Shown here piece by piece: positions 19,531 through 35,313 of a stretch of 36,299 nt of DNA (its first letter is position 1; each line of letters opens with the position of its first letter). Both the position numbers and the translations under genes were made by a program. The notes beneath the pieces were generated by a model. It ran no database searches, was not told the origin of the DNA, and saw nothing but the letters and a program-made list of their open reading frames with translations. Source of the DNA: a virus. Location of the stretch: IMG/VR virus record IMGVR_UViG_3300042562_001032, positions 1 through 36,299 of that record. One strand, 5' to 3'.

Positions 19531-19563
19531 GGTCGGTATACCTTTTCGCCGGGCTAAGTTAAG

Positions 19564-19591
19564 TCTGCGGCCTGCCCGTAAGAGCCGCAGA
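19564..19591 (-). promoter_or_regulatory. Leader hairpin upstream of the capsid gene
   Basis: TCTGCGGC pairs with GCCGCAGA around a 12-base loop in the 93-base gap before the capsid start. No T run follows, so it is more likely a 5' mRNA stabiliser or processing signal than a terminator. Confidence 0.5.
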
Positions 19592-19606
19592 TAATCATGT
19601 AACTAC

Positions 19607-19634
19607 ATTATCACTTAATCTGGTCACAACGCAA
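19607..19634 (-). promoter_or_regulatory. Candidate internal promoter for the capsid gene
   Basis: On the minus strand TTGCGT (19629-19634) and GATAAT (19607-19612) are 16 bases apart. The -10 is good, the -35 mediocre. A separate start here would boost capsid mRNA. Confidence 0.35.
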
Positions 19635-20421
19635 GTGCAGGTGCCGTGTCAGGCGTGATCGTTGCAATAGCAGAGACACTGTAGGCATCAAAGCCCCAGC
19701 CTTCGATGTTTTTTTCGCATAGCCACGCACGTCCATTCTGACCCCATCGCGTGCCCCAACTATTCTGCCACCGGATCAACCATTGCCCATCGCTGGCCCG
19801 CTTCATCCCTAGTCCGCCCATCACAGCGTGATTGTGCGAGCCTGAGCGGTTCGATGGGCAACCGTTCGCGTCGAGTGCGTTGAAACCGGAATTGACTGGA
19901 ACGCTGAAATTGAACGGTCGCCTGAGTTGAGTTGCAATACACAGATCCTGCCAAGTCAAAAGCGTGGTACCGATTTCAATCTTGAACCGTTTGCAATCGT
20001 TGCGTGCCTGTTGCTTGACTGACGATGGGTTGATCGTGCCGAATGGAACCAGTGAATTCTCGCAAGTGCCTGACCTTTCAAGTAGTTGGAGTGCCTCTGC
20101 AATGCTTGATCCGGTATCCCAACCACGGCACAGGTCGGCATAAATCAGCCAGGGTGATAGGTCGATATGAGGTTGACCGGCAATCCAGCGAGCCACTTCC
20201 AGCGATGTGGCTGCGGCGTGACCGTTGCACGCGCCAAACTGGCCTTGATCTTTGATCTTGATTGGGAAGTTTGGTGATGTAGTCAGGTCGAATTCCACCC
20301 ATTCGCTTGGCAGGATGGCCGGGAGTGGCTGCGAGCCGAGTTTGAGACTGATCGACGGTGGGCGGTTGCCCATGCCCCGCCAATCGTTCCCGAAACACGG
20401 GAATAGTTCGGGGACGCTCAT
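19624..20421 (-). CDS. Papain-like (C1A) cysteine peptidase
   Basis: 265 aa from MSVPELFPCF at 20421, chosen because GGAGG lies 7 bases upstream and the ATG overlaps the previous stop. IKDQGQFGACNGHAAA places oxyanion Gln59 six residues before nucleophile Cys65 exactly as in papain; NHAVMGGLG gives His198, and RWQNSWGTRWG gives Asn220. No signal peptide or long propeptide is visible. The gene follows a secreted thioredoxin-like protein and precedes the capsid. No recognisable endolysin is present, so it may act in host-envelope breakdown or entry; capsid processing is less likely since an HK97 protease exists. Confidence 0.85.
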   Translation of the reverse strand: MSVPELFPCFGNDWRGMGNRPPSISLKLGSQPLPAILPSEWVEFDLTTSPNFPIKIKDQGQFGACNGHAAATSLEVARWIAGQPHIDLSPWLIYADLCRGWDTGSSIAEALQLLERSGTCENSLVPFGTINPSSVKQQARNDCKRFKIEIGTTLLTWQDLCIATQLRRPFNFSVPVNSGFNALDANGCPSNRSGSHNHAVMGGLGMKRASDGQWLIRWQNSWGTRWGQNGRAWLCEKNIEGWGFDAYSVSAIATITPDTAPALAL

Positions 20422-20930
20422 TTGATCGCCTCCAGTATCGCCATGATATCGGCAAGATTGGCGGGTCGAATCGTCTTGACCAGTTTGCCGTTTGCGTCCT
20501 GCAATATCACGCAAGGCGTGCCGGTGGATTGTAGCGACGCACGAAATCCAAGCGTGTCAACGTCCGATTCGGTGGAGAGATAGGATCGGTAGTTTATCGC
20601 CTTGCGTTCGACTTCTGTTCTGAGAGCGGAATCGGTCCGCCATGCCGCTTGATCGGGGTTGTCTGTGTCAACGATCACACTCAGCCACTTGACGCCCGTG
20701 AGCGTGTCAGGGATCGGTATCGGGATCGGTCGTGGTTGTGGTCGCGGCTCGTCACCGGATCGCAGAATCAACACTGACCCGGACTGTTTGCCGACTAGAA
20801 ACGTGTTGCCGCCATCGACAAAGATCCATGACGACTCGGACATGGCGGGAAGGCTTGTCGCCTGCCCCGTGTCTGCCATGACTGGCATGGCGGATAGCGA
20901 TATCAGCAGCGAGATGAACGGTTTGAGCAT
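20418..20930 (-). CDS. Secreted protein with thioredoxin-like C-terminus, 170 aa
   Basis: MLKPFISLLISLSAMPVMADTG is a clear signal peptide, probably cut after VMA. A Pro/Arg spacer (PRPQPRPIPIPIP) follows. The C-terminal stretch TGTPCVILQDANGKLVKTIR resembles the cis-Pro strand and following beta strand of thioredoxin folds, but no CxxC pair is seen, so redox activity is doubtful. AGGA precedes the ATG at 20930; the longer frame adds only six codons. It is coupled to the papain-like peptidase and may be exported to the periplasm at lysis. Confidence 0.6.
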   Translation of the reverse strand: MLKPFISLLISLSAMPVMADTGQATSLPAMSESSWIFVDGGNTFLVGKQSGSVLILRSGDEPRPQPRPIPIPIPDTLTGVKWLSVIVDTDNPDQAAWRTDSALRTEVERKAINYRSYLSTESDVDTLGFRASLQSTGTPCVILQDANGKLVKTIRPANLADIMAILEAIK

Positions 20931-20958
20931 GATTCCTGCCAATATCAAGAGGGTTAGT

Positions 20959-21119: not shown

Positions 21120-21371
21120 TTATTCCCCCTTGTAAACGGCGTGCATTTGTGACTTCTGCCCGTCAATCAATTCTCCGAGATCATCTGTGGAGATCGTGCC
21201 TGGCTCGCCAGAATCGAGCGTGTCAGCTATCTGGCGCAGCAGTGCTGGTAACACTGACTGGATCAATGGCACGGCTATCAGCTTGATGATCGGCCAAAGG
21301 AGAACGAATGGGATCACGGGGAACCCCATTTTATTTCGCTCATCGGTTGATGTGGTTGGTGTCATTTGCAT
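21120..21371 (-). CDS. Membrane protein, up to 83 aa
   Basis: One hydrophobic stretch (PVIPFVLLWPIIKLIAVPLI) followed by an acidic soluble tail. The start may be 21371, or 21365 where ATGA overlaps the previous stop, or 21329. Part of a run of small membrane genes that probably forms the lysis cassette. Confidence 0.55.
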   Translation of the reverse strand: MQMTPTTSTDERNKMGFPVIPFVLLWPIIKLIAVPLIQSVLPALLRQIADTLDSGEPGTISTDDLGELIDGQKSQMHAVYKGE

Positions 21372-21586
21372 TTCCCGCCGCAGCAGGTTGTGATGGGGCG
21401 GTATCGCCAGTGTTTTGGCATCTGCCAGTCATAAGTCTTTTTTGTCGTGTCGTAATAAGCCAGCCAAAGCGGTCGGCAGTTTACAACAGTCACGGTGGTG
21501 GCAACTACCGAGGAATCCTTAGTAGTTGGTGGACACTGACCGTTCTGGCACGCTTGAGCGGTCACGAAAAAGAGTTCTGCGAGCAT
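21362..21586 (-). CDS. Small Cys-rich exported protein, 74 aa
   Basis: MLAELFFVTAQACQNGQC has a short hydrophobic start and an AQA-C junction that could be a signal cleavage site; it is not a standard lipobox. The tail ends with TTCCGGKCK, giving two pairs of Cys. It could be a spanin-like or other envelope protein. No family recognised. Confidence 0.5.
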   Translation of the reverse strand: MLAELFFVTAQACQNGQCPPTTKDSSVVATTVTVVNCRPLWLAYYDTTKKTYDWQMPKHWRYRPITTCCGGKCK

Positions 21587-21653: not shown

Positions 21654-21983
21654 TCAGGGCGTGTCGTCTGCGTCCGAAATGTTTTCGGATTTGTATCGCT
21701 CATGACTGAACTTGTCATGGCCGATCTGTTTTAATTTGAACTCCATCTGGAGTTTCTCGCGTTTCAAAGCAATCGTGTCGCCACGGTGCTTGATGAGGGC
21801 TTTAACCTGTATCCAGCCAACATAGCCAGCGATGACGCCGGGGATGGCCGATATTATCACGTGCATGGTCGTAACCTCCGGTGGTGCAACAGCCTCAGCG
21901 AGGCTGTAACCGGAATATACGAACCAAAACGGGATCGCGATAACAGTTCCATCCCAGATACTTGTTGTCGGCGCCGGTTGCAT
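21654..21983 (-). CDS. Membrane protein with possible dual start, 109 or 70 aa (holin/spanin-like)
   Basis: The long form has two hydrophobic segments (TVIAIPFWFVYSGYSLAEAV and VIISAIPGVIAGYVGWIQV); the short form, from an ATG at 21866 with a perfect GGAGG eight bases upstream, has only the second. A basic, charged coiled tail follows (KREKLQMEFKLKQIGHDKFS). Two starts that differ by one membrane segment are typical of holin/antiholin pairs. No family recognised. Confidence 0.55.
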   Translation of the reverse strand: MQPAPTTSIWDGTVIAIPFWFVYSGYSLAEAVAPPEVTTMHVIISAIPGVIAGYVGWIQVKALIKHRGDTIALKREKLQMEFKLKQIGHDKFSHERYKSENISDADDTP

Positions 21984-21989
21984 TGGTGA

Positions 21990-22211
21990 TTAGCTCAACG
22001 AGGGTGGGAGTTTATCGCCTGAAGCGAGGTAACGTGCAATTTGAGCAATTGCAAATGTGATTGCAATTCCAAGAGGTGCGAGCGAGTCCACAATTCGGGG
22101 CAGGTCCGTCTGGATCACACCCACGGCTGTGATGGCTCCAGTGATGATCGCCGTCAAAATCGTCGAACGTGCTTGGTCGTAGTTGACTTGACCCAAAACG
22201 TCTTTAATCAC
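21990..22211 (-). CDS. Holin-like membrane protein, 73 aa
   Basis: Starts at GTG 22211 (MIKDVLGQVNYDQARSTIL) with AAAGGTGA upstream. Two hydrophobic helices, about residues 17-35 and 43-63, separated by a short polar turn containing DLPR, and a short polar tail. This is the layout of class II holins. It overlaps or abuts the nuclease gene. Confidence 0.6.
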   Translation of the reverse strand: MIKDVLGQVNYDQARSTILTAIITGAITAVGVIQTDLPRIVDSLAPLGIAITFAIAQIARYLASGDKLPPSLS

Positions 22212-22212
22212 G

Positions 22213-22674
22213 TTATTCACCTTTCGTTTGCGGTTTCTTCTTGCGAAACTCCCAAGGTGGTTGCACATTGGGATCTGACCACAAGCCCCGTCTGGCTGTC
22301 TTGGCTTGTGCCTGAGCGGATTGTAATTGCGTGTCGTGCTTGGCGTACTGCTCGTACCAGTGGGCCATGCCAGTTTCGACCATCGTCAGACTGGCATCTT
22401 TACCACCGATTTCAACTCTCGCCAGCAGTCGCCCGTAACGGTCTTTTTTGCCCGGTTTGATGGTGACGGTTTGGCCGAACACCAAGCCCGACATGGCTTG
22501 TTTACTGGCCTGTCCGAACGGTTGTTTCAATTCTGGCGAGTCGATGCCGTCCAGCCTGATCTTAATTGTTTCGTCGGTTCGCACGGTGATCGTGTCACCA
22601 TCGTAAACGGCTACCACCTTGGCTTCAAAGGGTGGGGCGAACGTGAGCAGGAGCGTGGCGAGTAGGGTGATCAT
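22213..22674 (-). CDS. Secreted thermonuclease (SNase family)
   Basis: 153 aa from MITLLATLLLTFAPPFEA, a short signal peptide. The mature part begins KVVAVYDGDTITVR. Active-site residues of staphylococcal nuclease are all present: D25 and D27 (DGDT), R40, D45, E48 (IDSPE) and R82 (DRYGR). Length is normal for the family. The start overlaps the previous stop by four bases. Exported nuclease in a lysis cassette could cut host or competitor DNA or reduce viscosity on release. Confidence 0.88.
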   Translation of the reverse strand: MITLLATLLLTFAPPFEAKVVAVYDGDTITVRTDETIKIRLDGIDSPELKQPFGQASKQAMSGLVFGQTVTIKPGKKDRYGRLLARVEIGGKDASLTMVETGMAHWYEQYAKHDTQLQSAQAQAKTARRGLWSDPNVQPPWEFRKKKPQTKGE

Positions 22675-23090
22675 GTGGCGTTCCCGTTTGGTGGTGCTGG
22701 TGTGTCTGTCCACAATTCCAATCCACAAGCCGAGATGAACGCATCAAAGCCGGGATCTGGACTGCCTGGCACCGTGATTGGTGCGTTTCCATCAACGATG
22801 ATTCCGTCCGGAAATGCAATCGTGATCGGTTCGCCGTTGCTATCAACTCCGATATCGGCTTGAAATCCAATCGCCAGAAACCACGCCAGAGCCTGATTTA
22901 GACATGTTCGGTTGATTTCATTCGGGGACTGATAATAGAGTCCACCGTTTGAACCCCACCATTCATCGCCAGTTGCAACTTCTTTTAGCCGGATTGACGC
23001 CTCTGAGAGATTGCCTGACAAGCAGTCGGCGAAGGTTTGGCGATTGGCTGGCAGGACGGCGAAATAGATGCGAAGGGGGATTTGAGTCAT
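22671..23090 (-). CDS. Hypothetical protein, 139 aa
   Basis: MTQIPLRIYFAVLPANRQTF starts at 23090 overlapping the stop of the lectin-like gene. The middle (GDEWWGSNGGLYYQSPNEIN) is aromatic and Asn-rich. No family recognised. Perhaps a fibre chaperone or accessory, judging from position. Confidence 0.55.
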   Translation of the reverse strand: MTQIPLRIYFAVLPANRQTFADCLSGNLSEASIRLKEVATGDEWWGSNGGLYYQSPNEINRTCLNQALAWFLAIGFQADIGVDSNGEPITIAFPDGIIVDGNAPITVPGSPDPGFDAFISACGLELWTDTPAPPNGNAT

Positions 23091-26122: not shown

Positions 26123-26953
26123 TCACACCATTTCCATCAAGAGTGCCAGCCGTTGCGCCTCAATCACGCCCACCTCGTGCGACTTCTTTTCCGGAACATC
26201 TTCCACTTCTTCTTCAGCCTCTTCGGTTGCATCCATCGGTGATTGACTGACCAGATTCAGGAGGTTTTCAATCTCTTCGGTGACACTCGCCAAGACCTCC
26301 AACATCGCCTTTAGTTTCAACTCGTTTTTACCAGACAACACGCGACCGGCTTTCAGGTCGGTCCCGACCATCTGGCGTGCCGACTGTAGGGCACGATTGA
26401 CAAAGTTCTTGAATGCTGGTGGGCAAGCGTCCCAGCTTTTAAATGCCATAATTCTGGCGTTGCTATTGGCGGGAACTGTCACGGGCGAAACCTCCAGTAA
26501 ATTAGCCTTTTCGATCAATCGAATTGTCTTGGCGTTCTTTAGCCGTCTCAAGTCGGCCTCGTCAGGAGCGTATCCAGCCTTGTCCCAGATCGCTTTCAAC
26601 TCGGTCGGTGTAACATTGGACACCTTAAGCGGTTCCATGCCCACAGAGAGCATCTTGATGACGCCGTCACTGATCAGCGTCCGCATCTCTTTCGCAGCTG
26701 CGATGTCGCTGAATTTCGCTTTGACAAATAGCCCTTTGGAATCCTCCCAAGCGTCTGTATATTTACCCAATGGTGCTGACCAATTGTGCATTGATCCGCC
26801 AATGAAGTTGTCAGACAAGAACGTTTTCAGGCAGTCCTGATAACACCCTGGCATAACCACATCACCAGCCCGGTCAAGGCTGTAAAAGGTGCTGGCGTAG
26901 CCTTCAAAACCGCCTTGACTGGCCTTGACGGTGATCTCGGTAGTTTTGAGCAT
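26123..26953 (-). CDS. HK97-family prohead protease
   Basis: 276 aa from MLKTTEITVKASQGGFEG, with GAGG upstream of the ATG at 26953. GYASTFYSLDRAGDVVMPG is the family N-terminus. The catalytic residues are visible: H56 (MHNW), S103 (KMLSVGM) and E154 (LLEVSPVTVPAN). It should trim the capsid delta domain. The C-terminal 100 residues, ending in an acidic ATEEAEEEVEDVPEK stretch, are probably a scaffold-like tail. Confidence 0.9.
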   Translation of the reverse strand: MLKTTEITVKASQGGFEGYASTFYSLDRAGDVVMPGCYQDCLKTFLSDNFIGGSMHNWSAPLGKYTDAWEDSKGLFVKAKFSDIAAAKEMRTLISDGVIKMLSVGMEPLKVSNVTPTELKAIWDKAGYAPDEADLRRLKNAKTIRLIEKANLLEVSPVTVPANSNARIMAFKSWDACPPAFKNFVNRALQSARQMVGTDLKAGRVLSGKNELKLKAMLEVLASVTEEIENLLNLVSQSPMDATEEAEEEVEDVPEKKSHEVGVIEAQRLALLMEMV

Positions 26954-27002
26954 GGCGGCGGCCTCAGTGGGGTAAGTAATCAATTACGGTTCAAGTGTAT
27001 CA

Positions 27003-29156: not shown

Positions 29157-30320
29157 TTAGAGCGATACGCCCACTTTCCTGAATAGGTAATTGAAGGCCA
29201 GCGAAAGCCCATCCACCTGGTCGTCCACCTGATCTTTTTCGCCGTTGAAGTCAGCGATCTCATCGAGAAATGCGGTGATCCAGTTGCCCTTGACCATCAC
29301 GATCCCGCCGCGAGCCGCTTCCTTGGCCGATGGTAACGCTCGCTGATACTTGCCGCCGGTGTGACTCTCTTCGACCACGTGGTAATCAGACAAAGCAAGT
29401 CGTGTGTATTGGTTGATTCGCTTGCCCGCCGATCCCGGTTCGCGTTCGAGAATAATCGAGACATCCTGCCCGTCGGTCTCGGCTGTCTGCTGCTGGATCT
29501 TGTCCAGCTCGTCAGGTCCCCACTGGCCACGGATCACGGAATCGACAAAATACTTGCCGTCGATTTTGTGCATCCGCAAGCCCACCGAATGATCGCCGCC
29601 ACCACTGGTGGCTGCGGTGTCCCATGATCGGACTGATAATCGTTCACCGTCTGGCAGCTGCTCCACCGACTGGAACCAGTGCCGTTTGTAGAGAGTCCCG
29701 CCCGGTTCAACGAACTCGCCACCAAGTTCTTGCCGTTGCCAGTCCGCGGAGCCGATTGACGAGACGGACGAAACGAAGTCGTCGGGGTTGAACAAGTTGC
29801 TTGCCGATGTCGCTGTGGTGACGGAAACGTGAGCCTTTTTGACGAGATCGTAAAGCCAATGACGCGTCCCCCTGGGCGTGCTGGTCATCCACGCTTGACC
29901 GGGTGATTGCCTTAAGCGACCGATCGCGATAAGCCATGTTTCCTCGTCCATCATCGCTGACTCGTCCATCCAGACCCACCCCAAGTTAGGACCACGGAGC
30001 CGGTCGGGGTTGTCAGCCGATCGCCAGTAAATCGTCCGGTTGCCTTTGAGCACCATTTCATAATCGGATTTGTTGAACGATTCGATCAATCCCGCAGGTC
30101 TTGCAATCTCTAAAAATGCCCTGAGTGATGCGGTTCGCAACATGGGGAATGTTGGAGCCAATACCATGCCGGTGCTGTTGGATGGCATGGTGAGCACCTT
30201 TAACGCACCTGCAAAAGTTTTGCCGCTGCCGATGCCGCCGACAAAGGCCGTGAACTTCGATTCGTCAGCCCAAAATTGCTTCTGTGGGTCAGTCGCCTGA
30301 AGTAATGTTTTTTTCGCCAT
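29157..30320 (-). CDS. terL: Terminase large subunit (ATPase-nuclease)
   Basis: 387 aa. Walker A GGIGSGKT at 28-35, Walker B WVWMDES with D119-E120, and coupling motif STPRGTRHW near 146. The nuclease part has D233 (RSWDTAATS), E291/E293 (IILEREPGSAGK) and D369 (DQVDGLSLAF). Compact for a TerL but all motifs are present. It overlaps the small-subunit candidate by 32 bases. Confidence 0.93.
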   Translation of the reverse strand: MAKKTLLQATDPQKQFWADESKFTAFVGGIGSGKTFAGALKVLTMPSNSTGMVLAPTFPMLRTASLRAFLEIARPAGLIESFNKSDYEMVLKGNRTIYWRSADNPDRLRGPNLGWVWMDESAMMDEETWLIAIGRLRQSPGQAWMTSTPRGTRHWLYDLVKKAHVSVTTATSASNLFNPDDFVSSVSSIGSADWQRQELGGEFVEPGGTLYKRHWFQSVEQLPDGERLSVRSWDTAATSGGGDHSVGLRMHKIDGKYFVDSVIRGQWGPDELDKIQQQTAETDGQDVSIILEREPGSAGKRINQYTRLALSDYHVVEESHTGGKYQRALPSAKEAARGGIVMVKGNWITAFLDEIADFNGEKDQVDDQVDGLSLAFNYLFRKVGVSL

Positions 30321-34215: not shown

Positions 34216-35313
34216 TCAGTGGCTAGAAGCTGTCCGCTCGCTGACAATGTCTGCAAGCTGGCTTTTTATTGAACTGACAGTCGAGGCGTCGGAAACTATC
34301 TTGGTAGCCGAGTCGTACTTTGGATTGAATACTTTGCCTGCTTTTGCAAACAACTCAATCTTACCTTCGGATGAAGTTGCGCTTAATCGTCCCGCGAAAA
34401 TTGCGCTCTCAAAAGCGTACATCATTGGCGTATAACCCTGGGTTTCGTGGTTTGCTAGGTCTCGAAGTTTTTTCAGCATTGTTGTCGCGTGCTTTGGCAT
34501 TAATGCCATTTGCAATACTAGAGCGGCCCTGACTGTCGTACTTGTCACGATCTTGACTTTTTTAATTTTCTGAGAAAACAACGCATCCATCTCTCCCCGA
34601 AAGAGATTCACAAAGTCTTTGACGTAACTCTCGGTATGAAATCTTTTTTCGGCCTCGTGAATCCTAAGAAGTAAATGGGCAATTGATACGTGCTGCAATC
34701 TTTCTTCGAGAGAGTCCGCAGTGGACCTTTTTGAGTGCTTGTCAACAATTTCGAAAACCTTGTCATCGAGGCCCTCAGAGACCATCACTTGAATCGTGCA
34801 CCCAGACTTAATAACCGCAAGAAGTCGGTGCTGAAGGTCAAGCCCGCGACCTGACTTGGAGAAAGCGATACCTTGGTGGGCCAAAAGCCACTCACCTTCC
34901 TGCATTTGCTTGGCATATCTCTGAACCACATCTGGCCTGATCGTCCTGTTTTTGTAATTGGCCGCAAGTAAGGCTCTGGCCTCGTCAGGGCCAATTTCAA
35001 GAATCCGTGTGCGAATTTGGGTTTCCACAACGCGAGGCCGAATCCCGGCATTCAGCAGAAGGTCATCGACAACCGATTCAGGGTTGTCAAAAATCAGGCG
35101 TGACCCTGCCTCAGCCCGAATCAACTGTGAAGTGATCGGAGCTGCGAAACCATTGTCTCGCAACTGATCCATGATCCTGGCAGCTCGGCCGTAGCCGATC
35201 CTGTATCGCCTTTGCAGGTACGATGTCGAAAGCCCTCTGAGTTTAAGAGTCTGGATGGACTCCTCGTAAATCGCCTTATCGGTGAACTGTAGTACAGATG
35301 AAATGACGCTCAT
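34216..35313 (-). CDS. FtsK-gamma winged helix fused to a DGQHR/ParB-like domain, 365 aa
   Basis: Residues 12-58 (AIYEESIQTLKLRGLSTSYL, QRRYRIGYGRAARIMDQLRD, NGF) match the FtsK gamma domain, the winged helix that reads KOPS on chromosomes. Residues 118-205 (NYKNRTIRPDVVQRYAKQMQ, GEWLLAHQGIAFSK, GLDLQHRLLAV, and FEIVDKHSKRSTADSL) match phage proteins with a DGQHR-like core, here DLQHR. There is no FtsK motor domain. It may bind the KOPS-like iterons at 2776-3067 to regulate replication, segregation or transcription. Confidence 0.8.
   Translation of the reverse strand: MSVISSVLQFTDKAIYEESIQTLKLRGLSTSYLQRRYRIGYGRAARIMDQLRDNGFAAPITSQLIRAEAGSRLIFDNPESVVDDLLLNAGIRPRVVETQIRTRILEIGPDEARALLAANYKNRTIRPDVVQRYAKQMQEGEWLLAHQGIAFSKSGRGLDLQHRLLAVIKSGCTIQVMVSEGLDDKVFEIVDKHSKRSTADSLEERLQHVSIAHLLLRIHEAEKRFHTESYVKDFVNLFRGEMDALFSQKIKKVKIVTSTTVRAALVLQMALMPKHATTMLKKLRDLANHETQGYTPMMYAFESAIFAGRLSATSSEGKIELFAKAGKVFNPKYDSATKIVSDASTVSSIKSQLADIVSERTASSH

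Follow-up and report, generated by a model that had tools for sequence, protein, structure and literature searches.

A C1A cysteine peptidase paired with a secreted thioredoxin-like protein in phages, and its possible role at the host envelope

The peptidase, its secreted partner and the surrounding genes

The stretch of viral DNA analysed here, hereafter the window, is 36,299 nucleotides long (IMG/VR record IMGVR_UViG_3300042562_001032, positions 1 to 36,299). It encodes a cysteine peptidase of the C1A family, whose gene has the same strand and order as the late structural genes. As the initial annotation had it, a signal-peptide gene lies just upstream, the major capsid gene downstream (HK97-type; PF05065, E=1e-39), and a separate HK97-type prohead protease is present. 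Upstream of the peptidase stands a cassette of genes, adjoined on its own upstream side by LamG and tail fibre genes. The window also contains an integrase gene; tRNA and Rfam scans of it returned nothing. The features are as follows.

19531..19623, minus strand: intergenic region between peptidase and capsid genes, a head-module exchange junction with GATAATG and the inverted repeat CTGCGGC..GCCGCAG
19624..20421, minus strand: C1A (papain/xylellain-type) cysteine peptidase, 265 aa, with an ATG start, no signal peptide and no I29 propeptide
20418..20948, minus strand: obligate partner, secreted and thioredoxin-like; likely start ATG at 20930, stop overlapping the peptidase start (ATGA)
21120..21371, minus strand: small protein that has a single, strongly hydrophobic segment and resembles a holin in shape only; no Pfam or PHROG match
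21362..21586, minus strand: small Cys-containing protein with a QNGQCP motif, overlapping the next gene; below the membrane/signal threshold, possibly secreted
21654..21983, minus strand: small membrane protein whose C-terminal part is charged and helical
21990..22268, minus strand: small membrane protein that has two hydrophobic segments and resembles a class II holin in shape only
22213..22728, minus strand: staphylococcal-nuclease-like protein (PF00565, E=3.7e-25) with a signal-peptide-like N-terminus
26123..26983, minus strand: prohead protease S78, the head-maturation enzyme (PF04586, E=3.2e-18)

The peptidase matches the Pfam profile PF00112 (Peptidase_C1) with E=2.2e-8 and 34.9 bits, above the gathering score of 20.7, and PHROG 16701 'peptidase' with E=8.5e-7. 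Its AlphaFold2 model, built from 33 homologues (pLDDT 88.9, pTM 0.88), is closest in the PDB to xylellain of Xylella fastidiosa (3OIS; Foldseek E=1.4e-13), followed by cathepsin H, falcipain and bromelain. Xylellain is also the best sequence match among solved proteins, at an identity of only ~20-22%. The papain-like C1A identity proposed at the outset is thereby confirmed, and so is the complete Gln/Cys/His/Asn active site: Q59, C65, H198 and N220 follow the papain order, as in xylellain and other short bacterial C1A peptidases. With the exception of N220, which is Gly in one locus (L024) and conserved in the other 80 of 81 homologues, these residues are invariant in all 81.

Compared with close relatives, the gene is under purifying selection (Nei-Gojobori omega ~0.07, range 0.06-0.14), with an omega as low as that of the capsid gene. 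The E-values, the omega and more than 100 homologues rule out a chance ORF. We conclude that the gene encodes a true C1A papain-family peptidase of the xylellain type, its proteolytic activity being a prediction from sequence. The initial annotation also described the enzyme as lacking a propeptide; this holds for the I29 domain, to which a profile search gave no match, but the protein does carry a variable N-terminal arm of ~45 residues, with no hydrophobic segment. The arm might serve as a gate to the active site. The paper on the xylellain structure reportedly speaks, in its title, of an 'intriguing activation mechanism'.

Unlike xylellain, the phage enzyme is paired with a secreted protein and embedded in a membrane-rich cassette. 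Its start codon overlaps the stop of the partner gene, with GGAGG 8 nt before the ATG. The partner consists of an N-terminal signal peptide, a small beta part, a Pro-rich stalk and a C-terminal, putatively thioredoxin-like domain devoid of CxxC. This domain is modelled at pLDDT >90; its nearest PDB structures are thioredoxins and DsbD/ResA-like proteins, at a Foldseek E of only 0.007. No redox CxxC is conserved in 20 aligned partners, so the protein is not a usual thiol-disulphide oxidoreductase.

By tblastn, both genes are present in 161 loci (a redundant set). Wherever both sides are present, the partner lies directly upstream of the peptidase or is split from it by inserted cargo only, and loci with the partner alone end at a contig edge or in a cargo gene. 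According to mechanical ORF calls, 65 of 80 loci have the thioredoxin-like gene just before the peptidase, and most others have a cargo gene there. The cargo includes different DNA methyltransferases and a PAPS-reductase-like gene, and the junction is an insertion hot spot in L005-L007, L009, L012, L016, L037-L039, L053, L089, L119 and L169. The peptidase and the secreted protein upstream form an obligate pair, often translationally coupled, a partnership that goes beyond the initial annotation.

Membrane or signal segments occur in five of seven cassette proteins against three of 36 elsewhere in the window (Fisher p=0.001, by a crude hydropathy criterion and with a grouping picked after looking). 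Among the cassette genes, Pfam and PHROGs gave no significant match to a known holin or spanin, the best PHROG holin having E=0.034. The staphylococcal-nuclease-like gene (window 22213-22728) recurs in the cassettes of many relatives; it would be a periplasmic nuclease in a phage exit or exclusion module.

Between the peptidase and capsid genes, GATAATG is kept in all nine aligned sequences (the window, L003-L005, L019, L020, L023, L040 and L085), and most of the nine also have the GC-rich inverted repeat. A standard scan called no sigma-70-type promoter before the capsid gene. Judged by these motifs, the junction is possibly a late promoter or a processing site.

Exchange of head modules and distant homologues

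A scan of viral contigs for the peptidase gave 25 loci at first; an alignment-based search confirmed 100, of which 80 were kept. Downstream of the peptidase, the capsid gene follows directly in 15 of these 80 and a MuF-S78-capsid order in 46, while other head types comprise a scaffold with a P22-type coat (8 loci) and c32-c37 (7 loci). Pfam detects the P22 coat (PF11651, E=2e-6) and an SPP1-type portal in relatives. When loci were anchored on the capsid instead, the peptidase was kept in 16 of 16, and no other enzyme was found to displace it at its position.

Between the window and the L012 group, the peptidase is 94% and the partner 90% identical, beside 39% for the terminase large subunit (TerL), 29% for S78 and 27% for the capsid. 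More generally, the peptidase and cassette are 94-97% identical between phages with TerL at ~40% and capsid at ~27% identity, and the cassette is exchanged together with the neighbouring tail fibre and LamG genes. High identity of the pair beside divergent TerL, S78 and capsid indicates that the block is exchanged between phages as a unit. Such exchange would fit a role at the host interface and not one in head assembly.

A protein search of named phages found a homologue, 29% identical, in the 595-kb phage LR756511. The gene upstream of it, and overlapping it, encodes a secreted protein with a Pro-rich stalk, whose C-terminal domain matches the partner profile (hhalign probability 95.6%). A like arrangement occurs in further jumbo and small phages (L197, L198, L201, L202, L205, L207-L209, L247 and L255). 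A partner HMM made from the close group only, searched in the full ORF sets of 13 distant loci, gave nine matches (E 4e-14 to 5e-6), LR756511 among them, each the gene directly before the peptidase, and matched no other ORF. In single-pair comparisons L208 and L205 score weakly (hhalign probability 48% and 14%, respectively), so their assignment rests on layout. Altogether, the pair is kept down to ~27-30% identity, from 36-kb HK97-coat and P22-coat phages up to jumbo phages of 340-595 kb. In the small phages it closes a cassette of membrane and secretion genes that lies beside the tail fibres.

At L207:3717-5621, on a 98.7-kb viral contig, the peptidase ORF is interrupted exactly at its catalytic Cys, which directly follows an intein (PF14890, E=5.8e-10; signatures of Hint and LAGLIDADG) in the order DQGSESS, intein, CTGQ. 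In three jumbo-phage loci, the peptidase is followed by an amphipathic helical protein and then by two secreted CxxCH proteins (L197:6792-10063, L198:6784-10192, L028:6696-9730); the former matches SapB_2 weakly and with no domain support, the latter have weak haem-protein matches.

Absence of known endolysins and a proposed role in host exit

That no glycosidase or amidase is recognisable in the window, as first noted, is confirmed for every scanned ORF of the window and for the relatives, and profile searches detected no endolysin domain in the window or its near-complete relatives. Among 133 ORF products plus 10 large ones from the window and eight relatives, Pfam identified no endolysin family. 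Searches in all six frames were negative for Amidase_2 (22 records and 11 distant ones), for Phage_lysozyme and SLT (20 records) and for NLPC_P60 and M15_4 (21 records). The single M23-family match, of 202-215 aa, came from LR756511 and lies well away from the pair. As the searched records may be incomplete, these negatives, though strong, are not absolute; and as many phages carry unrecognised endolysins, a missing match is weak evidence. The peptidase matches no known endolysin family and is therefore not filed as a known endolysin; it may work like one.

We propose that the peptidase is a holin-dependent, endolysin-like envelope protease that acts with its secreted partner in a host-exit cassette, and put the probability of this reading at roughly 0.5. 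An envelope-acting enzyme is favoured by the active site, the lack of a detected endolysin, the cassette rich in membrane and secreted proteins, and the independence from the head module. In the course of events that we infer, from late timing and holin action through contact of the pair and a protein substrate to lysis, the peptidase, lacking a signal peptide, would accumulate in the cytoplasm late in infection. It would gain access to the periplasm once the inner membrane had been made permeable by at least one of the small membrane proteins encoded upstream, and would there meet the partner, exported earlier by its own signal peptide and standing on its Pro-rich stalk with the thioredoxin-like head. 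The two would cut proteins that hold the envelope together, whether linked to the wall or outer membrane or forming an S-layer-like coat, and would thereby take the place of an endolysin.

In favour of this proposal are the C1A fold with intact catalytic residues and an omega of ~0.07, the linkage to the partner, the membrane-rich cassette kept with four kinds of head module, the lack of an endolysin family in the window or the relatives searched, and the L207 intein sitting exactly at the catalytic Cys. A precedent for a C1A enzyme beside a lysin comes from the unrelated Thermoanaerobacterium phage THSA-485A, where a peptidase 29% identical to ours directly follows a GH25 lysozyme gene; there, however, it accompanies a conventional lysin in a phage of a Firmicute host, and nothing in the locus matches the partner HMM. 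Against the proposal, no cassette gene matches holin or spanin profiles, downstream of the jumbo pair come amphipathic proteins and secreted, haem-protein-like ones with CxxCH, none of them an obvious holin, and LR756511 has its M23-family protein elsewhere. Moreover, we know of no C1A enzyme that cuts peptidoglycan.

In overall design, the locus resembles holin-endolysin(-spanin) cassettes, with a soluble hydrolase lacking a signal placed after small membrane or secreted proteins in a late region. It differs from them in that the hydrolase is a C1A endopeptidase and not a muralytic enzyme, holin or spanin have no profile match, and no known lysis component corresponds to the thioredoxin-like partner. 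Cysteine peptidases do serve as lysis enzymes for unusual walls in the methanogen phages psiM2 and psiM100, whose PeiP and PeiW, cited in PMC12596118, are pseudomurein endoisopeptidases; these belong to a different peptidase family, C71, and the phages have archaeal hosts.

Alternatively, the enzyme could remodel the cell surface during infection or lysogeny, in superinfection exclusion or host-surface shaving, and have no part in exit. A secreted partner and a secreted nuclease in one cassette, the integrase in the window and the position of the jumbo pair among other secreted proteins would all suit such a role. Yet the peptidase, having no signal peptide, would need a route across the membrane, and its near-universal presence and strong purifying selection in the phage group are more like those of an essential gene than of a moron. 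We regard this as unlikely, though it is the alternative that fares best.

A little less probable still is a virion-associated entry enzyme, in which peptidase and partner would be carried on the tail or packaged, and would break down surface proteins as infection begins. The cassette does adjoin tail fibre and LamG-domain genes, which move with it when it is exchanged. However, the signal peptide would take the partner out of the cytoplasm, where virions assemble; one peptidase is common to phages with quite different heads; and neither member of the pair is fused to tail proteins.

If the C1A fold were adapted to the stem or cross-bridge peptides of peptidoglycan, the exit role would be right and the cutting of proteins wrong. 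Members of the C1A family are L-peptide endopeptidases, fold and sequence place our enzyme in this family with xylellain and cathepsins, and the NLPC_P60 profile had no match in 21 records. We consider such a peptidoglycan endolysin improbable, even though lysins commonly belong to other papain-fold families, CHAP and NlpC/P60 (PMC10318531), and peptidoglycan is present in planctomycetes (PMC4432640).

Maturation of the head or tail, finally, which the adjoining capsid gene in the window might bring to mind, is very improbable, since S78 is present and the peptidase is thus neither the sole protease nor tied to one head type, its cassette being swapped among at least four unrelated kinds of head module, P22-type coats included, and since a secreted partner makes no sense for assembly. 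The presence of S78 and the four kinds of downstream module led us to reject the enzyme as a head maturation protease.

A broader version of the exit proposal, to which we give less than even odds, is that C1A endopeptidase and stalked thioredoxin-like partner form a widespread system that replaces the endolysin and lyses cells by envelope proteolysis. The hosts of the HK97-type, P22-type and jumbo phages using it would then probably have a special, protein-dependent envelope. Among known bacteriophages with double-stranded DNA, the exit enzymes, to our knowledge, target peptidoglycan. If true, the proposal would extend the lysis enzymes by a new class and suggest hosts that depend on protein for an intact envelope; the pair would be a simple genetic marker for such phages in metagenomes, and as a two-gene system it would be directly testable in the laboratory. 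Even with a role in entry or remodelling, an obligate pair of secreted partner and peptidase common to 36-kb and 595-kb phages would call for explanation.

Xylellain-type C1A enzymes in tailed phages have been reported before: the relevant parts of PMC10380794, a papain-family survey, describe their independent acquisition by Myoviridae and Siphoviridae, and in those parts no function is assigned to them. The main text of a 2025 census of the lytic proteins of prokaryotic viruses makes no mention of papain or cysteine enzymes (PMC12596118). Within the literature covered, mostly papers outside subscription journals, we found no description of the thioredoxin-like/C1A pair and its cassette.

Clues to the host

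A bacterial host is indicated by the sequences: relatives encode CsrA and sigma-70 domains, and the window an FtsK-gamma domain. Profile scans of genome contigs with the peptidase and with TerL found no prophage or relative, and similarity to plasmids and phages gave only distant, taxonomically scattered matches. The weak haem-protein matches beside the jumbo pair are compatible with a planctomycete host and do not prove one.

The initial annotation had proposed a protein-degrading lysis or entry enzyme suited to the protein-rich envelopes of planctomycetes. Its envelope-acting enzyme remains the favoured reading, and capsid maturation has become unlikely; the protein-wall rationale needs care, because planctomycetes possess peptidoglycan (PMC4432640, PMC4432595).

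Encoded at L005:520-1083, and also in L004, L011, L012 and L017, is a secreted protein whose VPEP-type C-terminus looks like a PEP-CTERM sorting signal. Its score falls below the NCBIfam cut-off (L005, L017), and we did not retain it as a host marker; the signal, if real, would imply a host with an exosortase.

The FtsK-gamma (KOPS-reading) domain (E=1e-12) belongs to a 365-aa protein at 34216-35313 of the window, the uncharacterised C-terminal part of which is akin to plasmid proteins of varied bacteria. The nearest named near-full-length matches of the terminase large subunit (29157-30320) are those of the methanogen phages psiM2 and psiM100, at ~29%.
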